Position numbers and translations under genes: made by a program | Notes under the pieces: generated by a model | What the model was told of the DNA's origin: nothing | Seen by the model: the letters and a program-made list of their open reading frames with translations, nothing else | Databases searched by the model: none | Virus record (IMG/VR): IMGVR_UViG_3300025617_000038 | Coordinates: 1 to 46,981 of that record | Origin: a virus | Direction: 5' to 3' (one strand) | DNA length: 46,981 nucleotides | Part shown: positions 1 through 46,981 of the stretch, piece by piece | How positions within the stretch are numbered: the stretch's first letter is position 1 | How the letters are laid out: the number at the start of each line of letters is the position of its first letter

Positions 1-998
1 CCCCACGCATTGACGTAATCGGTATATTCAAACATTCCGACGAATTCGGAAACGTCCGCCAATCGCCATGATTGGCCGCCGTAATCCAAGGAATTTGCCC
101 ATTCAATCCATTCGGATTGCGTCAAATTCAAACGTTCGGTTTGCGCCCGCATCACATACACAATCAACCCGGTCAAATGGTCAAAACACATTGCCGGGTT
201 TTGCGAATTGTTCGATGCTGATTTGTGGAAATCTTCAACGAATTGTTCCCCCAAATCATTTGTCCACCGGTAGCGATTGCCAAACCGATTGTCAAACATC
301 AAAAGCGAATGCGCATCATCCGGAAAATATCCGTTGGCGCGAATCGCCGTGTTCAATGGATTCACGGGCAATGTGTAATCATACGTCCCGGCGGCGCGGT
401 GCCATTCCACCGAACCGGTTTCATTGAACGTTTGCAATCCGTCCCATGGAATAATTCGTGCGTAAATGTGGCCGGCCGGCGGCGGCGGCAATTCGGACGT
501 GGGCGGCGCGTTTTGGATGCATTGATAAGTTCCGCCCGGTTGAATTTGGTGAATGGTTCCGTCACCATCGGTCACGGCCACCGGTTGCCCCAAATACACC
601 GCGCCGGAATCGCGCCGGACATGCGCTTGAAATTCGAGAACCGCGAAATATTTGCGCGGTGAATCAACAACCTCCATTGAACCGGTTTGGAACTGGAACG
701 ATTCAACGGCCACGTCATCGTTTTGAAACGGCACCCGGTCCAATGCCATTCGAACGTTGTTTTGAATCGCGGACGCGCTTGCAAACGTTGCCGCATGACA
801 AACAATTTCAACATCAATTTCATCAACTTGTGACGGACCGGTTTTCGTGTCATTCGGTGACATCGTGATGACATCGTATGTGATGAACGGCAACGTTTTT
901 GATTGCGCCGCCGTCACCGGGAAAATGCGGTTGCCAACATCGGCCGCAACATCGGCGGCGTTTGACAACAATTCAAAAATTGCGATTCCAACGTTCAT
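1..998 (-). CDS. Tail terminator fused to a DUF1566-like domain (partial, C-terminus cut by window start)
   Basis: Reads from an ATG at 998 to the window edge without a stop, giving 332 codons. The complete homologue at 23285-24466 has 393 residues, so about 61 are missing. Residues 1 to about 130 resemble DUF3168/HK97 gp17-type tail-completion proteins, which cap the tail tube at the head end. The remainder holds a segment with the DUF1566 (Lcl C-terminal) pattern: TGL, then EWIEWANSL, then WRLADVSE. The start overlaps the stop of the gp10-like gene by ATGA. The tail-terminator role rests on the N-terminus and on gene order. Confidence 0.8.
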   Translation of the reverse strand, partial: MNVGIAIFELLSNAADVAADVGNRIFPVTAAQSKTLPFITYDVITMSPNDTKTGPSQVDEIDVEIVCHAATFASASAIQNNVRMALDRVPFQNDDVAVESFQFQTGSMEVVDSPRKYFAVLEFQAHVRRDSGAVYLGQPVAVTDGDGTIHQIQPGGTYQCIQNAPPTSELPPPPAGHIYARIIPWDGLQTFNETGSVEWHRAAGTYDYTLPVNPLNTAIRANGYFPDDAHSLLMFDNRFGNRYRWTNDLGEQFVEDFHKSASNNSQNPAMCFDHLTGLIVYVMRAQTERLNLTQSEWIEWANSLDYGGQSWRLADVSEFVGMFEYTDYVNAW

Positions 999-2872: not shown

Positions 2873-3097
2873 TTAACGTTGACGGAAAATCATGTTCAAT
2901 TTGCCGTTGGTCATGTGGATGATGGCCACGTTTTCGCCGTTGACGATGTGTTGTGAAACGCTGATGAATTCCGGTTTCGCGGCGTAATGTTCGACGATTT
3001 CGGATGCCACGGCGCGCCGGTGGTTTTCGTTGGTGCATTCCAACAATTCAACCCGGTCATTCATGGTGTTCGTGGTGGTGATGGTGAAACGTTGCAT
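2873..3097 (-). CDS. Unknown 74-residue cassette protein
   Basis: No family recognised. The protein begins MQRFTITTTN, has a helical centre (HRRAVASEIVEHYA) and ends in a basic KLNMIFRQR. It is the first gene after the promoter at 3131-3186 and differs from the unit B copy (26346-26570) by one residue (M/I). A GTG-initiated reading through the promoter -10 region would add 15 residues, but those codons overlap the promoter and the CA-rich leader, so the ATG at 3097 is preferred. Confidence 0.72.
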   Translation of the reverse strand: MQRFTITTTNTMNDRVELLECTNENHRRAVASEIVEHYAAKPEFISVSQHIVNGENVAIIHMTNGKLNMIFRQR

Positions 3098-3130
3098 GGT
3101 GTGTGTTGTGTGTGTGTGTTGTTTGATGGT

Positions 3131-3186
3131 GTAAATGTACACAAAGATTCATTCCGCGCAATACTTTGATGAACTTTTTTTTTCAT
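3131..3186 (-). promoter_or_regulatory. Conserved phage promoter, copy Z of unit A
   Basis: On the minus strand: an A9 tract, then GTTCA, then TTGCGC (3156-3161) as a -35-like element, a 16-base spacer, then TACATT (3134-3139) as a -10-like element inside the invariant GTGTACATTTAC. The same arrangement occurs at five other places in the window. It lies just after the capsid-gene terminator and just before a small-gene cassette. The A tract could act as an UP element. Promoter function is inferred from conservation and position. Confidence 0.75.
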
Positions 3187-3273
3187 CGTCCGATTTCGGG
3201 TCAAATAACCATTACCAGCATTCGCGGCGGATTTGACGTATTTGCGGCCAAAATCCGAATCCGGATGAAATAA

Positions 3274-13096: not shown

Positions 13097-13131
13097 GGTG
13101 ATGTGTGTTGTGTGTGTGTGTTGTTTGATGG

Positions 13132-13187
13132 CGTAAATGTACACAAAGATTCATTCCGCGCAATACTTTCGTGAACTTTTTTTTTCA
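13132..13187 (-). promoter_or_regulatory. Conserved phage promoter, copy X of unit A
   Basis: Minus-strand TTGCGC (13157-13162) and TACATT (13135-13140) are separated by 16 bases and preceded by the A9 tract. It follows the lysis-operon terminator and heads the cassette that leads into the replication genes. Confidence 0.75.
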
Positions 13188-13203
13188 TTCCACGATTCCG
13201 GCC

Positions 13204-14582: not shown

Positions 14583-17500
14583 TCAAATGTTGATTGTGAT
14601 TGTGATTGTATCGTTGGTGCCATCCGGCAAATCAAACTTTGCACATTCGATTTCCTCGCCTGAAAAATCGCCCGTATTTGAACCCAAAACCACTAATTCA
14701 TTGGCATTCGAAAATTGGTCGCGGAATGTCAATTGAACGGATGCAATGGTTATTGCCGTGTCAAATTCCAATTGGCCCCAATCGGTGCCGGTTGGGCTGG
14801 AAATTGTCCACCAATCGGTGCCGGTTTCATTCGCGTCAAAACATTTCCAAAATTCGCGGCCGGGATATGAATAACCCCACGTCACAACCAAACCGGCCAA
14901 TGATGTTGCCGATGTGAGTGCGGCGGACGGATGTTTTGTGCCGGTGGCGTTGGAACCTTCAAACATGTCAATATTGTATGCCATCACATATCGTGAACCC
15001 GGTTCGCCGCCATCGTGTTTGACCTGAAATCGCCAATGCGTAAACGTTCGCGATGGTGTCACGTCAAATGTTTCGATGGTTTCAAGGGATTGAAATTTAC
15101 CAGCATCTACGCCAACAATGCGCATTTCGTAATCGGTCGCAATGGATGTTGGAACAACAAATGACACGTTGCCCGATGAATCAATTGAAACCGGGTTGGC
15201 GGTGATTTCGGTGCCGCTTGAATCGTAAATGGCCCCCACATACGTTCGCCCGTTGACGTGATTTGAAATCGTCGCCGTGGCGTTTGCGCCTTGCTGATAT
15301 GAGCCGGACAAACCCGAAACAACCGGCGCGGCCGTGGTCAACAATCCCGATGTGATGCCGGTTTCGTCAACTTTGAAAATGGTGGTTCCATCGCCGTTTT
15401 TGATTTCGAATGATTGCCCGGTTTCGTTGTCGTCGTAATCCAAAACCACCACCACGTTTCCATTGGACCGAATTTCAAGGTCCGCCGGTTGATTCGGCAA
15501 CGAATTATTTGGTCCGATGATGGATGTGCCGCCGCTGGTGAACGTCAATCCACCGGAACCGATGATGGCACCATTGGACGTGAACGTTCCACCGCACGTC
15601 AAATCGGATGTGAACGTGGCCGAACCTTGCGCGGAAAATGAACCCAACGTTGAAATTGTCCCAATGGCGGAAATTGCGCCGGTCGATAAAATGGACGCAA
15701 ACGTTGGCGTGGATGAAACCGCAATGGTCAACGTGTCCGTGGCCGCGTTGGTGGTGACCACGGCGTTCGTTCCGGCGGCAATGGTCAACGTGTCCGTGGA
15801 TGAATCCGCCACAATGGATGATTGACCGGACACGGCGATTGTTTCAAATGCGTTGCCGCTGGTGCCACCACCACCGCCGGATGATTCGCCGTTGTTTCGC
15901 ACCGCCATCACGCCGTTTGACGCGGCGTGGATGACAAACGCGGCCGCCAAAACCATTCCGGATGCCGGTTCGGTTGTGGTCCATGTTCCCGCCGTGGTTT
16001 GCGACACAAACAACACGTCACCATCCGTGAATCCGGACAACGAAACGCCGCGAATGGTTCCCCTATCGAACACGACACCATCCGCGCCATTGGCAATGGC
16101 TTCGGCCGTCACGCCGATGAAATAACGTGCGTCAATTGTGCCGTCCGCAATCATTGGCGCGATGGTTTTGCGACCGGATGCGCCCAACGTCCCGTTGACG
16201 TACACCGGAACGCCGGCGGCGATGCTGGTGCCGGTATTGTTCCGACAAATCCACCAATCATTTTCCATGTCCACGGCCGCCGTTCCGATTCCCAAAACGA
16301 ACGCGGTGCGGTCACTATCAAAAACCATTTCGCCGTTGGCCGGTGTCAATTCCGCATTCGTAGCAAATGACAAACGTTCGGCAATGGCAACGTTCAACGC
16401 CTCGACCACATCGGCAAACGTGGCCATGCCCGAAACGCCCAACCGGCCCACCACATCCAATTCAAATGACGGCGATGAGGTGTTGACACCAACGCGGTTG
16501 CCGCGTGAATCGCCGGTGGCAAAAATGGCGGTGGATGAACCGGTGGATTCATCTTGCAAATCCACCACAAATTTTCCGGGCGATTGTTCCGAAATCGAAA
16601 CGGCCGTGTTGCCTGAATTGGATGTGAACGCCGCCGTGGTTTGCGTCAATGACATTTCCAAACCATCCGTTTTTCCATCGGCATAAACAACCTTCGTGAT
16701 GGTGTTGCCGGGGTCATCTTTGGGTTGAAACGTTCCCAGCAAATACGACAATTTGTTGGTCAACGAAACAACGGATGCCGCATTGGAATTGGTGGTTGAT
16801 TCCACCGAATCCAAATTGACGGATTGTGTGATGGTGATGAAATCGGTTTTGGTTTGAATGGCCGCCGTGGTTGATTCCAAATTGGCGATGGCCGTGCCGG
16901 CGGTGCCAACGGCGTTTGATAATCCGTTGGAATCGTTGCCCGGATTGAAACCGCCGGGCGTGACCTCATCGGACACGTTTTTTTTGCCGGTGGTGGCTTC
17001 GGTGATGTTGGTGGTGTCACGTTGAATTCGGGCCGCCTCAAAATCCAAAATTCGCGCATTGGTGTTCATCGTGAATTCCGTGAACAAAAACACGTCCGAA
17101 TCAATTTCAATCGTGTTCAACATGGTCACCAACGCGCCGATGGTGTTTGGTGCGGCCACATGGATTTGACCGGCCCAAATCGGAATTGGATTGCGCATGG
17201 TGCGCAAAATTTCATTCACGGCCAATCGGTTAATTCCAACGCCCGTCCCGGTGTAATTGGACGAATTCCAACCGGCGGCATCCGTCCAATCCGAACCATC
17301 CCAAATGGACAAAACGCCGCGTTCGGAATCGCTGATTCGGTCGCCCAACGTCACCACGTCATCAATTTTGATTGCGCGGTTCACCTCATCGCCAATTGCC
17401 GAAAATGTGATTTCGGAACCGCCGCCGTCCACGTCCGCACGATATGCCCGAACGTTTTGCGCAAAGTATGCCGGCGCATCCGCCACGTTCAAACCATCGT

Positions 17501-18923
17501 CAATGGCCACAAACGTTCCGTCATTGGTCACCAAATAAATTGACAACGTGATTTCCAACCCGGATTGCGTCGAAGGCAATGCGCCCGTTGTAAACGTCAA
17601 TCCAATGTTTTGATTTGTGCCGTTGTTGCGGTCGAATGGTTCGGACAAAAACGTTGTGGTTCCGCTGGTGCCGGACCAGTCCAACGGCCCGTAATTGGCC
17701 AAATCATACGTTCCAACCGAACCATCATCAAATCCGAAATTTCCTTGTCCACCAAACGTGATGGCGGCCGTGGCGTATTGCGAACCGCATTTGAATTGAA
17801 CGCCAATCCCAATGCGACCAACGCGTTCATCCGCGTCCGAAATTCCAAATGCCGGGTCCACGCCCGGCAACGTGACGTTCACCACGCCAACAAAATTGAT
17901 GAGTTGCCCGGCAAAGTAGTCAACGCCAAAATCCGTGATGGCCGTTGTGAACGCGTTTTGGGCTATATACGGCGACCAAACCACCGGCGCATTGCCGTTG
18001 TATTCGCGCGTTCGTTTTGCTTCGCTTAATGGCGGCGTAAATCGTTTCTCATTGCCGGCCATTTGGACCAAATCGGTTCCCGTGGCCAACAACGTTTCCG
18101 TGGCCGTGCTGGTCCCTACAAAATCGCCGTTGATGTCGTAATTATGAAACGCAATCGCCGTGTTGTTTTGATACGCGCCAATTGGCACAAAGTAGAAAAC
18201 GCCACCGGCCAAAAACAACCGGGCGTTTTGCGATTTGCACACGTTCCGCACCACGTCAAATGCCGTCATGAATTCCCGGTTGCCGTCATCGTCGATGGCC
18301 CAAAACGATTCATGATGCGTTCGGATGTTTTCCATGAACCGATTTGTCACGGACATGTTCGTTGCCTTAAAATCGTCGGCCACTCGAACGAAATCGTCAT
18401 TGGTTTCGAACGGATGCAACGCCCGTGTTTTGGCCAACGCGTTCACCAAATGTTCAATCAACGTGGCGTGGCCGGTGTACGCCGTGGCCGGGTCCGATTT
18501 GTATGCAATCCGTTTCAAATTGCCCAAATCATCGGATGCGGTCAACATGGATGAACGCGGCAATGGTTCGTTCATCATGGTCCATTGGTCGGATAACAAA
18601 ACGCCGAACCATTCCAATTGATACGAACCGCCAACCAATTTGTGAATGGTGACCGAAAATCGCGATTCGGCGGCCGTGGCCAACGCATTGATGAACGCCG
18701 TGTGTGCGGCGGTTTGTTCAATGAATTCGAATTGAACGGACGAACCAATGACCGGTTGAAAAACGTTTTCCGTGTCGCCTTTGTAAGACAAGGAAAACCC
18801 GGATGCGCCCAACGTGAATTCCGTTGGTTCCGTGCCGGCAAATTCGGAATCATGGATGTTGATTCGCCATTGTTGCCCGAACAAATCCGTGAATTCCGCG
18901 AAATATTTTGTTGCGTTTGCCAT
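14583..18923 (-). CDS. Large tail tip/fibre protein, 1446 residues
   Basis: This single long gene replaces the usual distal tail, hub and fibre genes. The N-terminal part (about 1-330) resembles baseplate-hub-like proteins of Bacteroidota siphophages (YFAEFTDLFGQQWRINI). The middle has repetitive Thr/Ser-rich fibre sequence with short beta repeats and a GVNTSSPSFELDVVGRLGVS motif typical of trimeric fibres. The last 150 residues (from RTFTHWRFQVKH) resemble a discoidin/F5-8C-like sugar-binding domain. It should contact the host surface. The C-terminal two thirds is nearly identical in unit B; the N-terminal part varies more. Confidence 0.82.
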   Translation of the reverse strand: MANATKYFAEFTDLFGQQWRINIHDSEFAGTEPTEFTLGASGFSLSYKGDTENVFQPVIGSSVQFEFIEQTAAHTAFINALATAAESRFSVTIHKLVGGSYQLEWFGVLLSDQWTMMNEPLPRSSMLTASDDLGNLKRIAYKSDPATAYTGHATLIEHLVNALAKTRALHPFETNDDFVRVADDFKATNMSVTNRFMENIRTHHESFWAIDDDGNREFMTAFDVVRNVCKSQNARLFLAGGVFYFVPIGAYQNNTAIAFHNYDINGDFVGTSTATETLLATGTDLVQMAGNEKRFTPPLSEAKRTREYNGNAPVVWSPYIAQNAFTTAITDFGVDYFAGQLINFVGVVNVTLPGVDPAFGISDADERVGRIGIGVQFKCGSQYATAAITFGGQGNFGFDDGSVGTYDLANYGPLDWSGTSGTTTFLSEPFDRNNGTNQNIGLTFTTGALPSTQSGLEITLSIYLVTNDGTFVAIDDGLNVADAPAYFAQNVRAYRADVDGGGSEITFSAIGDEVNRAIKIDDVVTLGDRISDSERGVLSIWDGSDWTDAAGWNSSNYTGTGVGINRLAVNEILRTMRNPIPIWAGQIHVAAPNTIGALVTMLNTIEIDSDVFLFTEFTMNTNARILDFEAARIQRDTTNITEATTGKKNVSDEVTPGGFNPGNDSNGLSNAVGTAGTAIANLESTTAAIQTKTDFITITQSVNLDSVESTTNSNAASVVSLTNKLSYLLGTFQPKDDPGNTITKVVYADGKTDGLEMSLTQTTAAFTSNSGNTAVSISEQSPGKFVVDLQDESTGSSTAIFATGDSRGNRVGVNTSSPSFELDVVGRLGVSGMATFADVVEALNVAIAERLSFATNAELTPANGEMVFDSDRTAFVLGIGTAAVDMENDWWICRNNTGTSIAAGVPVYVNGTLGASGRKTIAPMIADGTIDARYFIGVTAEAIANGADGVVFDRGTIRGVSLSGFTDGDVLFVSQTTAGTWTTTEPASGMVLAAAFVIHAASNGVMAVRNNGESSGGGGGTSGNAFETIAVSGQSSIVADSSTDTLTIAAGTNAVVTTNAATDTLTIAVSSTPTFASILSTGAISAIGTISTLGSFSAQGSATFTSDLTCGGTFTSNGAIIGSGGLTFTSGGTSIIGPNNSLPNQPADLEIRSNGNVVVVLDYDDNETGQSFEIKNGDGTTIFKVDETGITSGLLTTAAPVVSGLSGSYQQGANATATISNHVNGRTYVGAIYDSSGTEITANPVSIDSSGNVSFVVPTSIATDYEMRIVGVDAGKFQSLETIETFDVTPSRTFTHWRFQVKHDGGEPGSRYVMAYNIDMFEGSNATGTKHPSAALTSATSLAGLVVTWGYSYPGREFWKCFDANETGTDWWTISSPTGTDWGQLEFDTAITIASVQLTFRDQFSNANELVVLGSNTGDFSGEEIECAKFDLPDGTNDTITITINI

Positions 18924-19157: not shown

Positions 19158-19400
19158 TTAGATGGCAACGAATTTGATTGATTCGATGCGAATGCCTTTG
19201 GCGATGGCTTGTGCGCGCCATTGTTTCGCGTAATCTTTCGCACGGCCGCCCGGAAACGCGGTGCGGCCTTTGTATTCCAAACGGATGTTTTCGGACCGGT
19301 GCGTTTCGCCGAAAATGTCGCGTTCGAAGGTCAATTCCACGGCGTAAAATTTGGCGGTCAACGTGGCGTTGAAATCGGTGGTGGTGGTTGCGGTGTTCAT
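19158..19400 (-). CDS. Unknown 80-residue cassette protein (first of three copies)
   Basis: No family recognised. It has a Thr-rich start (MNTATTTTDFNATL), then KFYAVELTFERDIFG, and a basic C-terminal helix (RAKDYAKQWRAQAIAKG). The protein sequence is unchanged at 36174-36416 and 42760-43002, although the DNA differs at several silent sites. The ATG at 19400 is chosen because the upstream in-frame codons (MNNAQHNTT) fall in the CA-rich leader shared by other cassette genes. Confidence 0.72.
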   Translation of the reverse strand: MNTATTTTDFNATLTAKFYAVELTFERDIFGETHRSENIRLEYKGRTAFPGGRAKDYAKQWRAQAIAKGIRIESIKFVAI

Positions 19401-19430
19401 CGTGGTGTTGTGTTGTGCGTTGTTCATGGT

Positions 19431-19485
19431 GTAAATGTACACAAAGATTCATCCCGCGCAATACTTTCGTGAACTTTTTTTTTCA
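19431..19485 (-). promoter_or_regulatory. Conserved phage promoter, copy Y of unit A
   Basis: Minus-strand TTGCGC (19456-19461) and TACATT (19434-19439) at 16-base spacing with an upstream A tract. It begins only a few bases after the tape-measure stop and leads into the 80-residue gene, fibre and lysis genes. Confidence 0.75.
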
Positions 19486-19490
19486 TTCCG

Positions 19491-22570: not shown

Positions 22571-23014
22571 TTATTGTTGCGCAAAGGTCACCGCGCCGTT
22601 GATGTCGAAATTGACGGAAAACTCTTGCGTTTCCTCGAATGCCGATGACAATTCAACGCTGGTGATGAATCCGGACATTTGGTAAACGCGGTCGCCATCA
22701 TCGGCACCGGTTCCCGTTGCGCCCACACGAATTTCAATGTCAATTTCCGTCCCGTTCAATTGGGCATTTTGGAATTCCTGAAAATTGAAATCGTTGCCGT
22801 AGGCAACAAACGCGGTCATCGCGCATGATGCCGATTTGAGTCCCGGCAAAATGTTTTTCCATCCGTCATCATCTTTGTTGGTGATGTCCCGAATATCGGT
22901 TGTGATGGTCACGGAACATTCCTTGACATCATTGATGACGGCGATTGTTCCGCCCGTTTCAACGGCCGCGAATTTTACGTTCGTGGCGTTGATGAATCCG
23001 GTTGATTGTGCCAT
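22571..23014 (-). CDS. Major tail protein (TP901-1-like)
   Basis: The 147-residue, beta-rich acidic protein contains ATNVKFAAVETGGT, CSVTITTDIRDITNKD and a C-terminal VELSSAFEETQEFSVNFDI, like TP901-1-type tube proteins that form the tail tube. Its position before the chaperone and tape measure is standard. The unit B copy (46163-46606) differs at only a few residues (S/T, T/S, T/A, A/E). Confidence 0.88.
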   Translation of the reverse strand: MAQSTGFINATNVKFAAVETGGTIAVINDVKECSVTITTDIRDITNKDDDGWKNILPGLKSASCAMTAFVAYGNDFNFQEFQNAQLNGTEIDIEIRVGATGTGADDGDRVYQMSGFITSVELSSAFEETQEFSVNFDINGAVTFAQQ

Positions 23015-23259: not shown

Positions 23260-23595
23260 TTCAAATTTAGGAATTTCGAACGCATCAATTGTATTGATTC
23301 GCGACAATCAATCCGTGATGGAATGTCGATGCCAAATTTGACGCATAGCCAAACGTGGGGCCGTTGGTCACCGCGTATGAAATTTGGTTGTCCTTTGTGC
23401 GATTGCCGAAAACCAAATTGCCGCCGTATTGCCTCAAATGTGGGTCAATGAATGGTGTGTAGGCACCACCCCACGCATTGACGTAATCGGTATATTCAAA
23501 CATTCCGACGAATTCGGAAACGTCCGCCAATCGCCATGATTGGCCGCCGTAATCCAAGGAATTTGCCCATTCAATCCATTCGGATTGCGTCAAAT
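23260..23595. repeat. Segment identical between the copies at the unit junction
   Basis: Positions 23260-23383 are identical to 46858-46981 (124 bases), and 23469-23595 are identical to 1-127. The first mismatches are at 23259/46857 and 128/23596. The 85 bases between (23384-23468) have no second copy in the window. The segment covers the 3' part of the tail-terminator gene. It is the longest exact match between units that I noticed; the next, near 1823-1928, is about 106 bases. Both window ends and the A/B junction fall in it. Confidence 0.9.
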
Positions 23596-24466
23596 GCAAA
23601 CGTTCGGTTTGCGCCCGCATCACATACACAATCAACCCGGTCAAATGGTCAAAACACATTTTTGGATTTTGGGAATTGTTCGATGCTGATTTGTGGAAAT
23701 CTTCAACGAATTGTTCCCCCAAATCATTTGTCCACCGGTAGCGATTCCCAAACCGATTGTCAAACATCAGAAGCGAATGCGCGTCATCCGGGAAATATCC
23801 GTTCGCGCGAATCGCGGTGTTCAATGGATTCACGGGCAATGTGTAATCATACGTCCCGGCGGCGCGGTGCCATTCCACCGAACCGGTTTCATTGAACGTT
23901 TGCAATCCGTCCCATGGAACGATTCGCGCGTAGATGTGACCGGCCGCCGGCGGTGGCAATTCGGAAATTGGCGGCGCATTTTGGATGCATTGATACGTTC
24001 CGCCCGGCTGGATTTGGTGAATGCTTCCGTCACCATCAGTGACGGCCACCGGTTGCCCCAAATACACCGCACCGGCTTCGCGGCGTACATGCGCCTGAAA
24101 TTCCAGCACGGCAAAATATTTGCGTGGTGAATCGACAACCTCCATTGAACCGGTTTGAAATTGGAACGATTCAACGGCCACATCATCGTTTTGAAATGGC
24201 ACCCGGTCCAATGCGATTCGAACGTTGTTTTGGATGGTTGATGCGCTGGCATACGTTGCCGCATGACAAACAATTTCAACGTCGATTTCATCCACCAGTG
24301 ACGGACCGGTTTTGGTGTCGTTCGGTGCAATCGTGATAACATCGTAGGTGATGAACGGCAACGTTTTTGATTGCGCCGCCGTGGCCGGAAAAATCCGGTT
24401 GCCGACATCGGCCACAACATCGGTGGCGTTCGACAACAATTCGAAAATCGCGATTCCAACGTTCAT
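23285..24466 (-). CDS. Tail terminator fused to a DUF1566-like domain (complete)
   Basis: The full 393-residue version. Residues 1 to about 130 are a DUF3168/gp17-like tail terminator (LPFITYDVITIAPNDTKTG, VEIVCHAATYASAS, YFAVLEFQAHVRR). After a proline-rich bridge near 170, residues of about 190-393 include the DUF1566/Lcl signature: DHLTGLIVYVMR, LTQSEWIEWANSL and GGQSWRLADVSE. Typical tail terminators are about 130-150 residues, so this fusion is unusual. Its 3' part carries the segment identical between the unit copies. It overlaps the gp10-like gene by ATGA. Confidence 0.85.
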   Translation of the reverse strand: MNVGIAIFELLSNATDVVADVGNRIFPATAAQSKTLPFITYDVITIAPNDTKTGPSLVDEIDVEIVCHAATYASASTIQNNVRIALDRVPFQNDDVAVESFQFQTGSMEVVDSPRKYFAVLEFQAHVRREAGAVYLGQPVAVTDGDGSIHQIQPGGTYQCIQNAPPISELPPPAAGHIYARIVPWDGLQTFNETGSVEWHRAAGTYDYTLPVNPLNTAIRANGYFPDDAHSLLMFDNRFGNRYRWTNDLGEQFVEDFHKSASNNSQNPKMCFDHLTGLIVYVMRAQTERLHLTQSEWIEWANSLDYGGQSWRLADVSEFVGMFEYTDYVNAWGGAYTPFIDPHLRQYGGNLVFGNRTKDNQISYAVTNGPTFGYASNLASTFHHGLIVANQYN

Positions 24467-24963
24467 TTTGTTCGGGCCAATTCGGATTCAACTTGCTTTT
24501 GATATGCCACCAATTGCCGCATGCGCCACGCCTCGATTCCTTTTTTGCGGGATTCAATCACCGATTCAATCACGCCGGCGTTGTGGTTCACGCCATCAAT
24601 ATATTGTTGGTCTGATTCGACAATATACGCAAACCACGCATCACGCGTTGGCCCAACTTTGCGGCCGGTTCGTGGCCCGGCCCAATATGCGTTGCCATCG
24701 TCGGAAATCAACCACGAACCAATTGAACGTTTGTAGGTTCCCGGCTTGATTTTGAGCGGTTTTTTATTGTCGCCGCGTGTGACAATGATTGTTTCCGTGG
24801 ATGATGTGATGGCGCGTTTCATCGCCCGGACGTACAAATTCGCGGCGGTTTCGTTTATCAATCGCAACCGCGTATTTGTTTCCAAGTATCGCGAATGCAA
24901 TTTGTTCAACTTGCGTTCCAATTGGCGCATGCCTTGGATGCCAGCAACCATTTCAGCCATCAC
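24463..24963 (-). CDS. HK97 gp10-like neck protein (unit B)
   Basis: The 166-residue homologue of 995-1492 is one codon longer because of an extra residue before KKPLKIKPGTYK. The conserved YWAGPRTGRKVGPTRDAWF block and the C-terminal QKQVESELARTK are kept. Divergence is concentrated in the central helix (RAMKRAITSSTETIIVTRG). Four-base overlaps on both sides are preserved. Confidence 0.83.
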   Translation of the reverse strand: MMAEMVAGIQGMRQLERKLNKLHSRYLETNTRLRLINETAANLYVRAMKRAITSSTETIIVTRGDNKKPLKIKPGTYKRSIGSWLISDDGNAYWAGPRTGRKVGPTRDAWFAYIVESDQQYIDGVNHNAGVIESVIESRKKGIEAWRMRQLVAYQKQVESELARTK

Positions 24964-25292
24964 GAAACGTGTTCGGTAATCAAACGAAAATCAACGCCGC
25001 GTTCCAATTCATGAACGGCAACGATGTCGAAAATTTTGCCATCGTACACCAGCCGGTCACCCGGCGTGATGGTTCGCGAATCGCTGGTGTTGCGAATGGT
25101 CCATTCGGCCATTTTCACGGCGCGTTCCGCACCATCAACCAATTTTTCGGTTGAACCGGTTTTGATGATGGCCAACGATGCCCAACATGCAAACGCGGTG
25201 GTCCACGTCAATTCGCGTTCGCCGAAATTGTTGATGGTTTCGGTGAATCGTTCGATGGCAACGCGGCGGTCCAATTTACCAATGCGCATCAC
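24960..25292 (-). CDS. Head-tail adaptor (unit B)
   Basis: The 110-residue homologue of 1489-1821 opens with the same MRIGKLDRR motif. Substitutions are conservative apart from the loop near residues 23-25 (INN instead of ANA) and the AIIKTGSTEKL segment. It is encoded between the connector and gp10-like genes with ATGA overlaps. Confidence 0.85.
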   Translation of the reverse strand: MMRIGKLDRRVAIERFTETINNFGERELTWTTAFACWASLAIIKTGSTEKLVDGAERAVKMAEWTIRNTSDSRTITPGDRLVYDGKIFDIVAVHELERGVDFRLITEHVS

Positions 25293-25843
25293 CCAAAAAT
25301 TCGGAATGGTGACAACAACGAATGAACGCCAAACGGAATTTCATTCACGGACCGAATTTCGGCCGCCGTTCGGTTTTCGTACATGTGACCAACCAACAAT
25401 CGAATGGCGTGAATCACGGGCGCGGGAATCGCGTTTTCGGCATGGCCTACGTTGCAATTGACAATCACGCGGTTCAACGCGTAATCATACAACGATGGCA
25501 CATCGTGAAAACGAATGCGGCCATGCGCGCCGGCGATGTCTGAAAACCAATTGGTGGTTGGTAACGTTTGCACGTTTCCGTTTTCGTCAATGTATTCAAC
25601 CGATTCAATTGTGTTCACCGGTCCAACATCCAATGTGACGTTTTGCCATTTGTCCAAATACACAACCGCATCAACATCGCCCAAAACGCGATTGGTGATT
25701 TGTTGAACAAATGAAATTGCGGTGTCGCGGAATGCTTCAATCAACGCATCGTCATCGTTGACATCAACGCGCAAATGCGATTTCAAATCGGCAACCGAAA
25801 TCACGTCATCCAATGTTGGCGTTGTGGTGAAAATTGTGACCAT
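25289..25843 (-). CDS. gp6-like head-tail connector (unit B)
   Basis: The 184-residue homologue of 1818-2372. The C-terminal 60 residues, including NAIPAPVIHAIRLLVGHMY, are unchanged apart from the last residue, while the middle loop around residues 75-105 (NTIESVEYIDENGNVQT) has changed. A stretch of DNA in the 3' part of the gene is identical to unit A over about 106 bases. Confidence 0.87.
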   Translation of the reverse strand: MVTIFTTTPTLDDVISVADLKSHLRVDVNDDDALIEAFRDTAISFVQQITNRVLGDVDAVVYLDKWQNVTLDVGPVNTIESVEYIDENGNVQTLPTTNWFSDIAGAHGRIRFHDVPSLYDYALNRVIVNCNVGHAENAIPAPVIHAIRLLVGHMYENRTAAEIRSVNEIPFGVHSLLSPFRIFG

Positions 25844-26345: not shown

Positions 26346-26570
26346 TTAACGTTGACGGAAAATCATGTTCAATTTGCCGTTGGTCATGTGGATGATGGCC
26401 ACGTTTTCGCCGTTCACAATGTGTTGTGAAACGCTGATGAATTCCGGTTTCGCGGCGTAATGTTCGACGATTTCGGATGCCACGGCGCGGCGGTGGTTTT
26501 CGTTGGTGCATTCCAACAATTCAACCCGGTCGTTGATGGTGTTCGTGGTGGTGATGGTAAAACGTTGCAT
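26346..26570 (-). CDS. Unknown 74-residue cassette protein (unit B)
   Basis: Differs from 2873-3097 by one residue only (NTIND for NTMND). It begins at the ATG at 26570 after the leader ACACACACAACGCACC, directly downstream of the promoter at 26601-26656. Confidence 0.72.
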   Translation of the reverse strand: MQRFTITTTNTINDRVELLECTNENHRRAVASEIVEHYAAKPEFISVSQHIVNGENVAIIHMTNGKLNMIFRQR

Positions 26571-26600
26571 GGTGCGTTGTGTGTGTGTGTTGTTCATGGT

Positions 26601-26656
26601 GTAAATGTACACAAAGATTCATTCCGTGCAATACTTTGATGAACTTTTTTTTTCAT
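26601..26656 (-). promoter_or_regulatory. Conserved phage promoter, copy Z of unit B
   Basis: Minus-strand TTGCAC (26626-26631) and TACATT (26604-26609), 16-base spacer, A tract upstream. It differs from the unit A copy at 3131-3186 by one base in the -35-like element. Confidence 0.75.
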
Positions 26657-26679
26657 CGGCCTGATTTGGGTGCAACAAA

Positions 26680-36173: not shown

Positions 36174-36416
36174 TTAGATGGCAACGAATTTGATGGATTC
36201 GATGCGAATGCCTTTGGCGATGGCTTGTGCGCGCCATTGCTTCGCGTAATCTTTGGCGCGGCCGCCCGGAAACGCGGTGCGGCCTTTGTATTCCAAACGG
36301 ATGTTTTCGGACCGGTGCGTTTCGCCGAAAATGTCGCGTTCAAAGGTCAATTCGACGGCGTAAAATTTGGCGGTCAACGTGGCGTTGAAATCGGTGGTGG
36401 TGGTTGCGGTGTTCAT
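36174..36416 (-). CDS. Unknown 80-residue cassette protein (second copy, slot X of unit B)
   Basis: Encodes the same protein as 19158-19400 without any amino-acid change; the DNA differs at silent positions (for example GGCGCG for CGCACG near 36257). In unit A this slot holds the 125-residue gene instead. It is led by the promoter at 36447-36502. Confidence 0.72.
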   Translation of the reverse strand: MNTATTTTDFNATLTAKFYAVELTFERDIFGETHRSENIRLEYKGRTAFPGGRAKDYAKQWRAQAIAKGIRIESIKFVAI

Positions 36417-36446
36417 CGTGGTGTTGTGTTGTGCGTTGTTCATGGT

Positions 36447-36502
36447 GTAAATGTACACAAAGATTCATTCGATGCAACATTTTGATGAATTTTTTTTTTC
36501 AT
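36447..36502 (-). promoter_or_regulatory. Conserved phage promoter, copy X of unit B
   Basis: Minus-strand TTGCAT (36472-36477) and TACATT (36450-36455) with 16-base spacing. This is the most diverged -35-like box of the six, while the -10 region GTGTACATTTAC is unchanged. Confidence 0.72.
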
Positions 36503-36518
36503 TCGCTTCGGTTGGGCG

Positions 36519-37882: not shown

Positions 37883-40800
37883 TCAAATGTTGATTGTGAG
37901 TGTGATTGTATCGTTGGTCCCATCCGGCAAATCAAACGTTCCACATTCGATTTCTTCGCCTGAAAAATTTCCCGTATTTGAACCCAAAACCACCAATTGA
38001 TTGGCGTTCGAAAATTGGTCGCGGAATGTCAATTGAATGGATGCAATGGTAACGGCCGTGTCAAATTCCAATTGGCCCCAATCGGTACCGGTTGGGCTGG
38101 AAATGGTCCACCAATCGGAACCGGTTTCATTCGCATCAAAACATTCCCAAAATTCGCGGCCGGGATATGAATAACCCCACGTCACAACCAAACCGGGCAA
38201 TGACGTTGCCGATGTGAGTGCGGCGGACGGATGTTTTGTGCCGGTTGCGTCAGAACCTTCGAACAAATCGATATTGTACGCCATGATATATCGCGAACCC
38301 GGTTCGCCGCCATTGTGTTTGACCTGAAATCGCCAATGCGTAAACGTGCGCGATGGTGTCACGTCAAATGTTTCGATGGTTTCAAGGGATTGAAATTTTC
38401 CAGCATCTACGCCAACAATGCGCATTTCGTAATCAGTCGCAATGGATGTTGGAACAACAAATGACACGTTGCCGGATGAATCAATTGAAACCGGGTTGGC
38501 GGTGATTTCGGTGCCGCTTGAATCATAAATGGCCCCCACATACGTTCGCCCGGTGACGTGATTTGAAATCGTCGCCGTGGCGTTTGCGCCTTGCTGATAT
38601 GAGCCGGACAAACCCGAAACAACCGGTGCGGCCGTGGTCAATAAACCCGATGTCACGCCGGTTTCATTTACTTTGAAAATAGTGGTGCCATCGCCGTTTT
38701 TGATTTCAAACGATTGTCCGGTTTCGTTGTCGTCGTAATCCAGCACGACGACCACATTGCCATTGGAACGAATTTCAAGGTCCGCCGGTTGATTTGGCAA
38801 CGAATTATTTGGACCAATGATGGACGTGCCGCCGCTGGTGAACGTCAATCCACCGGAACCGATGATGGCACCATTGGACGTGAACGTTCCGCCGCATGTC
38901 AAATCGGATGTGAACGTGGCCGAACCTTGCGCGGAAAATGAACCCAACGTTGAAATTGTCCCGATGGCGGAAATTGAACCGGTTGACAAAATGGAACCAA
39001 ACGTTGGTGTGGATGAAACCGCAATGGTCAACGTATCCGTGGCCGCGTTGGTGGTGATTACGGCGTTCGTGCCGGCGGCAATGGTCAACGTGTCCGTGGA
39101 TGAATCGGCAACGATGGACGATTGCCCGGAAACGGCAATGGTTTCAAACGCGTTGCCGCTGGTGCCGCCACCACCGCCGGATTCATCGCCATTGTTGCGC
39201 ACCGCCATCACGCCGTTTGACGCGGCGTAAACTACAAACGCGGCCGGCAAAACCATTCCGGATGCCGGTTCGGTTGTGGTCCATGTTCCGGCCGTGGTTT
39301 GCGACACAAACAAAACGTCACCATCCGTGAATCCGGACAACGAAACGCCGCGAATGGTTCCCCGGTCAAACACGACACCATCGGCACCATTGGCAATGGC
39401 TTCGGCCGTTACGCCGATGAAATATCGCGCGTCAATCGTCCCGTCCGCAATCATTGGCGCAATGGTTTTCCGACCGGATGCGCCCAACGTCCCGTTGACG
39501 TACACCGGAACGCCGGCGGCGATGCTGGTGCCGGTATTGTTCCGACAAATCCACCAATCGTTTTCCATGTCCACGGCCGCCGTTCCAATTCCCAAAACGA
39601 ACGCGGACCGGTCACCATCAAAAACCATTTCGCCGTTGGCCGGTGTCAATTCCGCATCCGTAGCAAATGACAAACGTTCGGCAATGGCAACGTTCAACGC
39701 CTCGACCACATCGGCAAACGTGGCGATGCCCGAAACGCCCAACCGGCCGACCACATCCAATTCAACGGACGGCGATGCGGTGTTGACACCAACGCGATTG
39801 CCGCGTGAATCACCGGTGGCAAAAATGGCGGTGGATGAACCGGTGGATTCGTCTTGCAAATCGACGACAAATCGACCGGGCGATTGTTCCGAAATTGAAA
39901 CGCCCGTGTTGCCTGAATTGGATGTGAACGCCGCCGTGGTTTGCGTCAACGACATTTCCAAACCATCCGTTTTGCCATCAGCGTAAACAACCTTTGTGAT
40001 GGTGTTGCCGGGGTCATCTTTGGGTTGAAACGTTCCCAGCAAATACGACAATTTGTTGGTCAACGAAACAACCGATGCGGCATTGGAATTGGTGGTTGAT
40101 TCCACCGAATCCAAATTGACGGATTGCGTAATGGTGATGAAATCGGTTTTGGTTTGAATGGCCGCCGTGGTTGATTCCAAATTTGCAATGGCGGTGCCGG
40201 TGGCCCCAATCGCGTTTGACAATCCGTTGGAATCGTTGCCGGGATTAAAACCGCCCGGCACAACCTCATCGGAAACGTTTTTTTTGCCTGATGTCGCTTC
40301 GGTGATGGAATTGGTGTCACGCTGGATTCGCGCCGCCTCAAAATCCAAAATGCGCGCATTGGTGTTCATGGTGAATTCCGTGAACACGAACACATCGGAA
40401 TCAATTTCAATGGCGTTCAACATCGTGACCAACGCGCCGATGGTGTCCGGCGCGGCCACATGAAATTGACCGGCCCAAATCGGAATCGGATTGCGCATGG
40501 TGCGCAAAATTTCATTGACGGCCAATCGGTTAATTCCAACGCCGGTGCCAGTGTAATTGGACGAAATCCAACCGGCCGAATCGGCCCATTCGGAACCATT
40601 CCAAACCGACAAAACGCCGCGTTCCGAATCGCTGATTCGGTCGCCTAATGTCACCACGTCATCAATTTTGATGGCGCGGTTGGCATCGTCGCCGTTTGCC
40701 GTGTATGTTATTTCCGAACCGCCGCCGTCCACATCGGCCCGGAATGCCCGAACGTTTTGCGCGTAATATTCCGGCGCATCGGCCACATTCAATCCATTGT

Positions 40801-42223
40801 CAATGGCCAACAACGTTCCATCATTGGCCACCAAATAAATGGAAAACGTGATTTCCAAATTGGTTTGCGTTGATGGCAACGCGCCCGTGGTGAATGTCAA
40901 TCCGATGTTTTGATTGGTGCCGGCGTTTCGGTCAAATGGTTCGGACAAAAACAAGGTTGCACCAGCGGTGCCGGACCAATTCAAGGTTGCCCAATTTGCC
41001 AAATCGTATGTTCCAACGGAACCATCATCAAATCCGAAATTGCCTTGACCACCAAACGTGATGGCGGCGGTGGAATACTGGTTTCCACATTTGAATTGAA
41101 CGCCTACGGCAATTCGACCAACGCGTTCGTCCGCATCGGAAATGCCAAACGCCGGGTCCACGCCCGGCAACGTGACGTTCACCACGCCAACGAAATTGAT
41201 GAGTTGTCCGGCAAAGTAGTCAACCCCAAAATCGGTGATGGCCGTTGTGAAATCATTTTGGGCGATATACGGCGACCAAATCACCGGCGCATTGCCATTG
41301 TATTCACGAACGCGCCGCGCTTCGCTTAATGGCGGCGTAAAACGTTTCTCATTGCCGGCCAATTGCACCAAATCCGTTCCCGTGGCCAACAACGTTTCGG
41401 CGGCCGTGCTGGTGCCTACGAAATCGCCGTTGATGTCGTAATTGTGAAACGCAATGGCGGTGTCGTTTTGATACGCGCCAATTGGAACAAAGTAGAAAAC
41501 GCCACCAGCCAAAAACAAACGGGCGTTTTGTGATTTGCAAATGTTGCGGACCACATCGAATGACGACATGAATTCGCGGTTGCCATCATCATCAATGGCC
41601 CAAAACGATTCGTGATGCGTTCGGATGTTTTCCATGAACCGCGTGGTCGCGGACATGTTCGTTGCCTTGAAATCATCGGCCACGCGCACGAAATCATCGG
41701 TGGCGATGAATGGATGCAACGCGCGCGTTTTGGTCAACGCGTTCACCAAATGTTCAATCAACGTGGCATGACCAGCGTAAGCCGTGGCCGGGTCCGATTT
41801 GTATGCAATGGATTTGAGGTTTCCCAAATCATCCGATGCCGTCAACAATGATGAACGCGGCAATGGTTCGTTCATCATCGACCATTGGTCCGATAACAAA
41901 ACGCCGAACCATTCCAGCGCATACGAACCGCCAACCAATTTTTCGATGGTGATGGAAAAACGCGATTCAACCGCCGTGGCCAACGCGTTGATGAACGCCG
42001 TGTGTTCGGCCGTTTCTTCAATGAATTCGAATTGAAGGGACGAACCAATGATTGGTTGAAAAACGTTTTCCGTGTCGCCTTTGTACGATAACGAAAAACC
42101 CGATGCGCCCAACGTGAATTCCGTTGGTGTGGTTCCGGCAAATTGTGAATCGTGGATGTTGATTCGCCATTGTTGCCCGAACAAATCTTTGAATTCGGCG
42201 AAATATTTTGTTGCGTTTGCCAT
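37883..42223 (-). CDS. Large tail tip/fibre protein (unit B)
   Basis: Exactly the same length, 1446 residues, as 14583-18923. Changes are concentrated in the N-terminal 600 residues (for example ETAEHTAFINALATAVES, YALEWFGVLLSDQWSMMNE). From about residue 640 to the end, including the putative sugar-binding C-terminus, only scattered changes occur. If that end binds the receptor, A and B should infect overlapping hosts. Confidence 0.82.
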   Translation of the reverse strand: MANATKYFAEFKDLFGQQWRINIHDSQFAGTTPTEFTLGASGFSLSYKGDTENVFQPIIGSSLQFEFIEETAEHTAFINALATAVESRFSITIEKLVGGSYALEWFGVLLSDQWSMMNEPLPRSSLLTASDDLGNLKSIAYKSDPATAYAGHATLIEHLVNALTKTRALHPFIATDDFVRVADDFKATNMSATTRFMENIRTHHESFWAIDDDGNREFMSSFDVVRNICKSQNARLFLAGGVFYFVPIGAYQNDTAIAFHNYDINGDFVGTSTAAETLLATGTDLVQLAGNEKRFTPPLSEARRVREYNGNAPVIWSPYIAQNDFTTAITDFGVDYFAGQLINFVGVVNVTLPGVDPAFGISDADERVGRIAVGVQFKCGNQYSTAAITFGGQGNFGFDDGSVGTYDLANWATLNWSGTAGATLFLSEPFDRNAGTNQNIGLTFTTGALPSTQTNLEITFSIYLVANDGTLLAIDNGLNVADAPEYYAQNVRAFRADVDGGGSEITYTANGDDANRAIKIDDVVTLGDRISDSERGVLSVWNGSEWADSAGWISSNYTGTGVGINRLAVNEILRTMRNPIPIWAGQFHVAAPDTIGALVTMLNAIEIDSDVFVFTEFTMNTNARILDFEAARIQRDTNSITEATSGKKNVSDEVVPGGFNPGNDSNGLSNAIGATGTAIANLESTTAAIQTKTDFITITQSVNLDSVESTTNSNAASVVSLTNKLSYLLGTFQPKDDPGNTITKVVYADGKTDGLEMSLTQTTAAFTSNSGNTGVSISEQSPGRFVVDLQDESTGSSTAIFATGDSRGNRVGVNTASPSVELDVVGRLGVSGIATFADVVEALNVAIAERLSFATDAELTPANGEMVFDGDRSAFVLGIGTAAVDMENDWWICRNNTGTSIAAGVPVYVNGTLGASGRKTIAPMIADGTIDARYFIGVTAEAIANGADGVVFDRGTIRGVSLSGFTDGDVLFVSQTTAGTWTTTEPASGMVLPAAFVVYAASNGVMAVRNNGDESGGGGGTSGNAFETIAVSGQSSIVADSSTDTLTIAAGTNAVITTNAATDTLTIAVSSTPTFGSILSTGSISAIGTISTLGSFSAQGSATFTSDLTCGGTFTSNGAIIGSGGLTFTSGGTSIIGPNNSLPNQPADLEIRSNGNVVVVLDYDDNETGQSFEIKNGDGTTIFKVNETGVTSGLLTTAAPVVSGLSGSYQQGANATATISNHVTGRTYVGAIYDSSGTEITANPVSIDSSGNVSFVVPTSIATDYEMRIVGVDAGKFQSLETIETFDVTPSRTFTHWRFQVKHNGGEPGSRYIMAYNIDLFEGSDATGTKHPSAALTSATSLPGLVVTWGYSYPGREFWECFDANETGSDWWTISSPTGTDWGQLEFDTAVTIASIQLTFRDQFSNANQLVVLGSNTGNFSGEEIECGTFDLPDGTNDTITLTINI

Positions 42224-42759: not shown

Positions 42760-43002
42760 TTAGATGGCAACGAATTTGATGGATTCGATGCGAATGCCTT
42801 TGGCGATGGCTTGTGCGCGCCATTGCTTCGCGTAATCTTTCGCACGTCCGCCCGGAAACGCGGTGCGGCCTTTGTATTCCAAACGGATGTTTTCGGACCG
42901 GTGCGTTTCGCCGAAAATGTCGCGTTCGAAGGTCAATTCAACGGCGTAAAATTTGGCGGTCAACGTGGCGTTGAAATCGGTGGTGGTGGTTGCGGTGTTC
43001 AT
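42760..43002 (-). CDS. Unknown 80-residue cassette protein (third copy)
   Basis: The same protein as 19158-19400 and 36174-36416. Silent differences (CGCACGTCC near 42842; TTCAACG near 42939) show that it is not a recent perfect copy of either. Confidence 0.72.
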   Translation of the reverse strand: MNTATTTTDFNATLTAKFYAVELTFERDIFGETHRSENIRLEYKGRTAFPGGRAKDYAKQWRAQAIAKGIRIESIKFVAI

Positions 43003-43032
43003 CGTGGTGTTGTGTTGTGCGTTGTTCATGGT

Positions 43033-43087
43033 GTAAATGTACACCAATATTCACACCGCGCAACATTTCCATGAACTTTTTTTTTCA
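43033..43087 (-). promoter_or_regulatory. Conserved phage promoter, copy Y of unit B
   Basis: Minus-strand TTGCGC (43058-43063) and TACATT (43036-43041), 16-base spacer. The spacer differs most from the other copies (ATATTGG for ATCTTTG), so the spacer sequence is not the conserved signal. Confidence 0.73.
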
Positions 43088-43091
43088 TCGG

Positions 43092-46882: not shown

Positions 46883-46981
46883 TCAATTGTATTGATTCGC
46901 GACAATCAATCCGTGATGGAATGTCGATGCCAAATTTGACGCATAGCCAAACGTGGGGCCGTTGGTCACCGCGTATGAAAT
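46883..46981 (-). CDS. C-terminal fragment of a tail terminator-DUF1566 fusion (partial at window end)
   Basis: 33 codons including the stop, matching the last 32 residues of 23285-24466 exactly (ending HHGLIVANQYN). It may be the missing C-terminus of the gene cut at 1-998. Joining the two directly would leave a frame error (998 + 99 = 1097 bases), but adding the 85 bases present in the complete copy restores 394 codons. Confidence 0.85.
   Translation of the reverse strand: MSYAVTNGPTFGYASNLASTFHHGLIVANQYN

Follow-up and report, generated by a model that had tools for sequence, protein, structure and literature searches.

A tail terminator carrying a divergent DUF1566-like domain, a candidate exchangeable adhesin at the neck of uncultured phages

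Tail terminators form the hexamers that close the tail tube, as established for lambda gpU, T4 gp15 and XM1 gp5, and are usually regarded as conserved, plug-like proteins of some 130 residues. The gene described here lies in a 46,981-base IMG/VR virus record, IMGVR_UViG_3300025617_000038 (hereafter the window), and a first-pass annotation had described it as a DUF3168-like terminator followed by a DUF1566/Lcl-like domain. The coordinates given there were correct: the gene is a single minus-strand ORF (Table 1), which overlaps the end of the upstream Neck1-like gene by 4 bp. The fusion also occurs in the second genome copy within the window and in two other IMG/VR contigs, and we hold it highly probable that the architecture, with a terminator and a divergent DUF1566-like domain in one protein, is real.

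Table 1. Positions of the fusion gene, its parts and neighbours, and of related elements (window coordinates unless a locus is named).
Feature	Position	Strand	Basis or remark
Fusion gene	23285-24466	minus	ATG at 24466, stop 23285-23287, 393 aa/codons
Tail terminator domain, aa 1-129	24080..24466	minus	PF11367, PHROG 347, AF2 and Foldseek
Linker, aa 130-190	23897..24079	minus	small module 'VTDGDGSxHxxxPGGTYxCI' and proline-rich stretch
Divergent DUF1566/Lcl_C-like domain, aa 191-393	23288..23896	minus	47% identity to L299 extension; hhalign
WRLADVSEF motif, aa 311-319	23510..23536	minus	Arg-Glu spacing as in Lcl
Second copy of fusion gene, aa 1-332	3..998	minus	
Second copy of fusion gene, aa 362-393	46886..46981	minus	85 bp missing at contig ends
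Neck1-like gene, upstream neighbour	24463..24963	minus	PHROG 5, E 0.0021; synteny
Head closure Hc1	24960..25292	minus	PF05521, 3.3e-16
Head-tail adaptor Ad1	25289..25843	minus	PF05135, 3.3e-11; PHROG 40, 2.6e-21
Major tail (tube) protein, downstream neighbour	22571..23014	minus	PF06199, 5.2e-10
Element of ~95 bp	3091-3188, 13099-13191, 19395-19489, 26564-26659, 36411-36504, 42997-43091	minus	
~150-aa domain with PF07603 tips	L186 2594-4552, L188 1563-3734, L199 2321-4552		
~150-aa domain with PF07603 tips	L237 3389-4540, L210 3086-4543, L238 2903-4528		

The window consists of two genomes of about 23.5 kb, 87-89% identical and arranged head to tail. Contig 3300027612_000008 (G001, 48,382 bp) has the same arrangement and ends in a third variant that is 91% identical. 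In the 3′ part of the fusion gene, 336 bp (23260..23595, minus strand) are identical between the genome copies, which is the longest such run in the stretch compared. In a further contig, 3300004595_000066, both flanks come from copy one, its upstream side running into its downstream side; monomeric strain genomes of 23.5 kb would give just this. Several relatives are found on contigs of 21-24 kb. Both observations disfavour reading the window as a genuine 47-kb genome in which a 23.5-kb unit is duplicated, and a cross-join between two co-occurring strains, inside the fusion gene at the 336-bp run, is its most likely origin. Which N-terminal variant belongs with which C-terminal one is therefore uncertain; the fusion of terminator and DUF1566-like domain is seen in every haplotype. 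Between strains that differ by 11-13% elsewhere, the 336-bp identity may stem from a selective sweep or a recent recombination event, or from collapse during assembly. Comparison of the two genome copies gave a dN/dS of 0.08 for the N-terminal domain and of 0.11 for the extension (the latter value calculated outside the identical stretch), and the low value for the extension indicates that it is under purifying selection and maintained. Each genome copy also contains three copies of an element of about 95 bp (88% mean column identity, 'A(9)..TATTGCGCGGAATGAATCTTTGTGTACATTTACACCATGAAC') that precedes short genes and whose TTG/TTTG boxes recall Bacteroidota promoters.

Residues 1-129 are a tail terminator, as the first-pass annotation had proposed, since profiles, fold matches and gene order agree. 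Residues 6-126 match PF11367 with 33.8 bits (curated cut-off 24.5), and the N-terminal half matches PHROG 347 'tail terminator' with an E value of 1.2e-13. Structure prediction, suggested at the outset as a check, gave a mostly confident terminator fold: the AlphaFold2 (AF2) model has a pLDDT of mostly 70-94, and its best Foldseek matches are almost all terminators or neck proteins from virions or phage-like particles of known structure, RcGTA, Bxb1, lambda gpU, T5 p142 and T4 gp15 among them (E values down to 1e-5). The gene is located between the Neck1-like gene and the major tail protein gene, and is followed by genes for a small protein, the major tail protein and the tape measure. The order Ad1-Hc1-Ne1-TrP-MTP-TAC-TMP, with TrP the terminator, is found in loci of every extension type described below, as far as the contigs extend. 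Complete neighbours are near-constant in length (Hc1 106-127, Ne1 164-197 and MTP 132-169 aa), and TrP ranges from 129 to 1040 aa across loci.

The motifs on which the DUF1566 call had been based are present in the C-terminal half, with TGL at residue 276, EWIEWANSL at 296 and WRLADVSEF at 311. A Pfam scan of residues 130-393 gave no match to Lcl_C/DUF1566 (PF07603) and a PF07603 search of the window gave none either, while direct Pfam and PDB searches with the C-terminal half returned nothing usable. We built viral Lcl_C HMMs from PF07603 proteins taken from IMG/VR. With an HMM made from 11 members, the C-terminal half scored 14.1 bits, the best of 5000 shuffles reaching 11.8, and among 19,717 natural ORFs it was the top-scoring one outside DUF1566 loci; with a broader HMM (A5), one of 5000 shuffles outscored it. 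Taken alone, these scores are only suggestive. AF2 models of the C-terminal half were of low confidence whether or not DUF1566 rows were included (pLDDT 33 even with a 39-row alignment), and were not used.

Searching with the terminator-domain alignment identified contig 3300017745_000102 (L299), whose terminator bears an extension of 255 aa sharing 47% identity with that of the window (E 4e-60), so that the same fusion does occur in another phage. The terminator domains of the two are 43% identical, and the linker is kept at 48% identity. L299 matches positions 4-117 of the 117 positions of PF07603 with 22.2 bits (E 1.8e-4, below the curated Pfam cut-off of 34.9 bits), scores 26.4 bits with a viral Lcl_C HMM as compared to 9.8 for the best of 5000 shuffles, and contains 'YAGFSDWRLADASEY', which closely resembles the PF07603 family hallmark. 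When the window proteins and L299 were compared with the viral Lcl_C profile by hhalign, the probability was 92.5% and the P value 4.8e-7. Within the WRLPxxxEL core, W, R, L and E are found in all four sequences aligned, the proline being replaced by alanine in the window. The viral Lcl_C HMM also matches PDB entries 8q4e/8qk8, named HbP1, and R312 and E318 of the window have the same six-residue spacing as Arg338 and Glu344, which form a conserved salt bridge in the C-terminal domain of Lcl (PMC11162425). Because of the homology to L299, the match of L299 to PF07603, the profile comparison and the Arg-Glu spacing, we take residues 130-393 to include a divergent DUF1566 domain. The original DUF1566/Lcl-like assignment is thus borne out through L299 and the profile comparison, but not at the level of the Pfam cut-off, which both the window and L299 miss.

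To place the fusion among its relatives, we searched IMG/VR with the terminator-domain alignment and obtained about 80 related loci, nearly all from strains other than those of the window, with 28-52% identity in the terminator domain. Bare C-termini account for 32 rows of the terminator tree, and the DUF1566-like extension is found in the window strains and L299. Four loci (L307, L317, L333 and L334) have an extension of about 200 aa that is a putative jelly roll, judged by appearance and with no family match. Long tail-fibre-like extensions measure 490-910 aa, or more where the contig ends first, and many have lectin-like tips; the shafts of several have PHROG matches of the tail-fibre and minor-tail kinds. 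Over some 80 positions, certain long extensions score above the cut-off for PF09206 (E 2.8e-10 and 3.9e-16), which we read as a concanavalin-like lectin module. One terminator that is 96-100% identical to fibre-bearing ones stops 41 aa into the extension (L284 3001-3510), and is either a truncated fibre or a sequencing error. The fusion in the window is therefore one case of a wider pattern of optional terminator extensions. Its presumed rarity holds for the literature, since a search that covered only a minority of subscription journals turned up no published terminator with a lectin or fibre joined to it, but the fusion is not a one-off.

The extensions also appear to move between terminators. 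When the last 200 residues of complete extensions were clustered, the tips fell into six clusters with no BLAST similarity between them, and different clusters occur on terminator domains that are 92-99% identical, as in L301 and L302 (99.2%) or L281 and L295 (98.5%). In a quick tree with many weak branches, the seven extension states require at least nine changes, the window pair groups with the bare L265 and L267 (SH-aLRT 83), and L299 is placed in the fibre-bearing part although its extension is of the same kind as that of the window. Since mis-joining probably occurred inside the fusion gene itself, some single swaps between near-identical terminators could likewise be metagenome mis-joins; most tip clusters recur in independent contigs. 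This exchange resembles the behaviour of tail-fibre tips.

Similar tips may occur on other proteins as well. The N-terminal part of phrog_10356 matches Hc1 (window 24960-25292) and its C-terminal part the fibre tip of a terminator (L269 3001-5763), hinting that the same tips may also be fused to head-closure proteins; the S-CBS4 match of phrog_10356 was rejected as such a fusion, as the annotated gene layout shows none. Many environmental phages encode an uncharacterised N-terminal domain of about 150 aa ('H.QI..F..GD') that is fused via beta-repeats to PF07603 tips (Table 1) and that, judged by eye, adjoins adaptor-like or tape-measure-like genes. Profile comparison gave no support for the idea that the long DUF1566 proteins of these loci (L186-L238) are terminators too (probability 0.2%), and no link in sequence between this domain and terminators was found.

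A tblastn search of 50,697 phage records found the terminator domain in Bacteroides, Moraxella, Synechococcus and Methanoculleus viruses, and gave no meaningful match to the DUF1566-like extension. The isolated-phage relatives that we inspected have stand-alone terminators. A prophage search in a Bacteroidota sample of 395 genomes yielded five PF11367 matches in frames of 135-195 aa, none with a long extension.

We favour, with a probability of about 0.65, the reading that the protein is a tail terminator with a swappable neck-borne adhesin that would hold the virion on a surface. By homology, six terminator copies in a siphophage-like virus would close off the tail tube and form the site where the head docks. 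In XM1 the terminator's C-terminus faces the outside, where it pairs with the sheath (PMC10457771), and since it reaches the outer side, a C-terminal fusion could project outward; the linker and the DUF1566-like domain would likewise extend from the outside of the ring, the small module and prolines of the linker setting the domain off from it. Up to six such domains could ring the neck, perhaps as two trimers in the manner of Lcl, providing avidity for polysaccharide. In Lcl, DUF1566 is a C-type-lectin-like domain that binds glycosaminoglycans (PMC11162425), and the neck domains may act as an ancillary adhesin with a weak but multivalent hold on host surface glycans or other polysaccharide. 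For the window protein we infer the hexamer, the outside location, virion incorporation, binding and the ligand. A distal receptor-binding protein is probably also present in this phage, because the C-terminus of its 1446-aa tail protein (37883-42223 and 14583-18923), which has no Pfam or PHROG match, by eye resembles a fibre with a discoidin-like domain.

Membership of the DUF1566 family does not by itself imply adhesion, because the domain may also act in trimerisation; in Lcl it contributes to trimer contacts as well (PMC11162425). The extension might thus be structural and reinforce the head-tail joint from outside without binding sugar, much like gp56, the terminator decoration protein of Staphylococcus phage 812; that phage carries decoration proteins on both stopper and terminator, and particles without them often have broken necks (PMC12886913). 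We regard such a role as unlikely, as close relatives manage without any extension, long fibre-like proteins with lectin-like tips alternate with it at the same site, and the tips change while the terminator stays constant, which would not be expected of a cement. Because fibre-like shafts with lectin-like tips occupy this very position in relatives, which exchange the tips, a sticky neck decoration is strongly favoured as the predicted role.

That the C-terminal domain is made or released separately, through an internal start or cleavage, and is absent from the neck seems improbable: environmental phages commonly encode stand-alone DUF1566 proteins of about 200 aa, but here the ORF is single and uninterrupted in all haplotypes and in L299, and the fibre-type extensions of relatives would make little sense as free proteins. 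A chance resemblance between DUF1566 and an unrelated fold would fit the missing direct Pfam match, the unusable AF2 model and the shuffle that outscored the domain with HMM A5; the full-length match of the homologous L299 extension to PF07603, its score relative to shuffles and the hhalign P value make this quite improbable. It is very improbable indeed that the domain serves a diversity-generating retroelement as its hypervariable target. Such a role has been described for other DUF1566 domains, and papers on these retroelements discuss DUF1566, including with regard to Bacteroides uniformis phages (PMC8143477, PMC4159848, PMC6642488). The 3′ end of the gene, identical over 336 bp between the copies, is its least variable stretch, self-comparison of the window revealed no template repeat and showed the 3′ end repeated only as the strain copy, and no reverse transcriptase was found among the proteins scanned, which covered part of the ORFs.

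In these phages a single small domain serves as the anchor for optional adhesin-like domains, 200 to 900 residues long, which relatives exchange. Much more tentatively, and with doubt prevailing, the terminator may serve uncultured phages in many environmental metagenomes as an evolvable receptor-binding platform, on which six neck fibres or lectins, interchanged in the manner of tail-fibre tips, determine attachment and perhaps host range. Were these domains exposed and binding, adsorption would be divided between the tail tip and the neck. Predicting host range solely from tail-tip genes would then overlook some of the components involved, and pipelines annotating such proteins as 'tail fibre' would assign them to the wrong virion end.

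The arrangement has partial counterparts among known systems. The gp17 tail completion family (PF11367/PHROG 347) shares the N-terminal 129 aa, gene order and predicted fold, but its isolated-phage members examined are about 118-131 aa long and lack an added domain. As in the window, the neck passage structure (NPS) and TpeX/Dit modules of lactococcal 936 phages and TP901-1 are optional, exchangeable carbohydrate-binding modules on virion structural proteins, the neck included; NPS and TpeX modules bind host cells, NPS weakly, and the collar of TP901-1 is non-essential (PMC6669499). Unlike the window module, which is fused to the terminator and is, across relatives, DUF1566-, fibre- or ConA-like, NPS is encoded as a protein in its own right, which begins with a BppU-like part and is proposed to attach at the portal/capsid connector (PMC6669499). 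We rejected a 936-type neck passage structure for the window protein, whose N-terminal domain is a tail terminator and not BppU-like.

The collar spike gp40 of Vibrio phage XM1 is an adhesin-like trimer at the level of the neck stopper and terminator; gp40 is, however, a separate gene product docking on gp4 and gp5, and the XM1 terminator is bare at 161 aa (PMC10457771). Alteromonas phage R7M, an aquatic siphophage, has whiskers, or neck fibres, at the head-tail interface, which were tentatively assigned to a separate abundant protein, ORF28 (PMC8265664). With the C-terminal domain of Legionella Lcl (DUF1566, PF07603; PDB 8q4e/8qk8), the window protein has the WRLxxxxE motif and the Arg/Glu spacing in common. 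It is nevertheless very divergent from Lcl, its WSST and final VR motifs being lost or altered; it has no collagen stalk, and the domain is carried by a phage neck protein.
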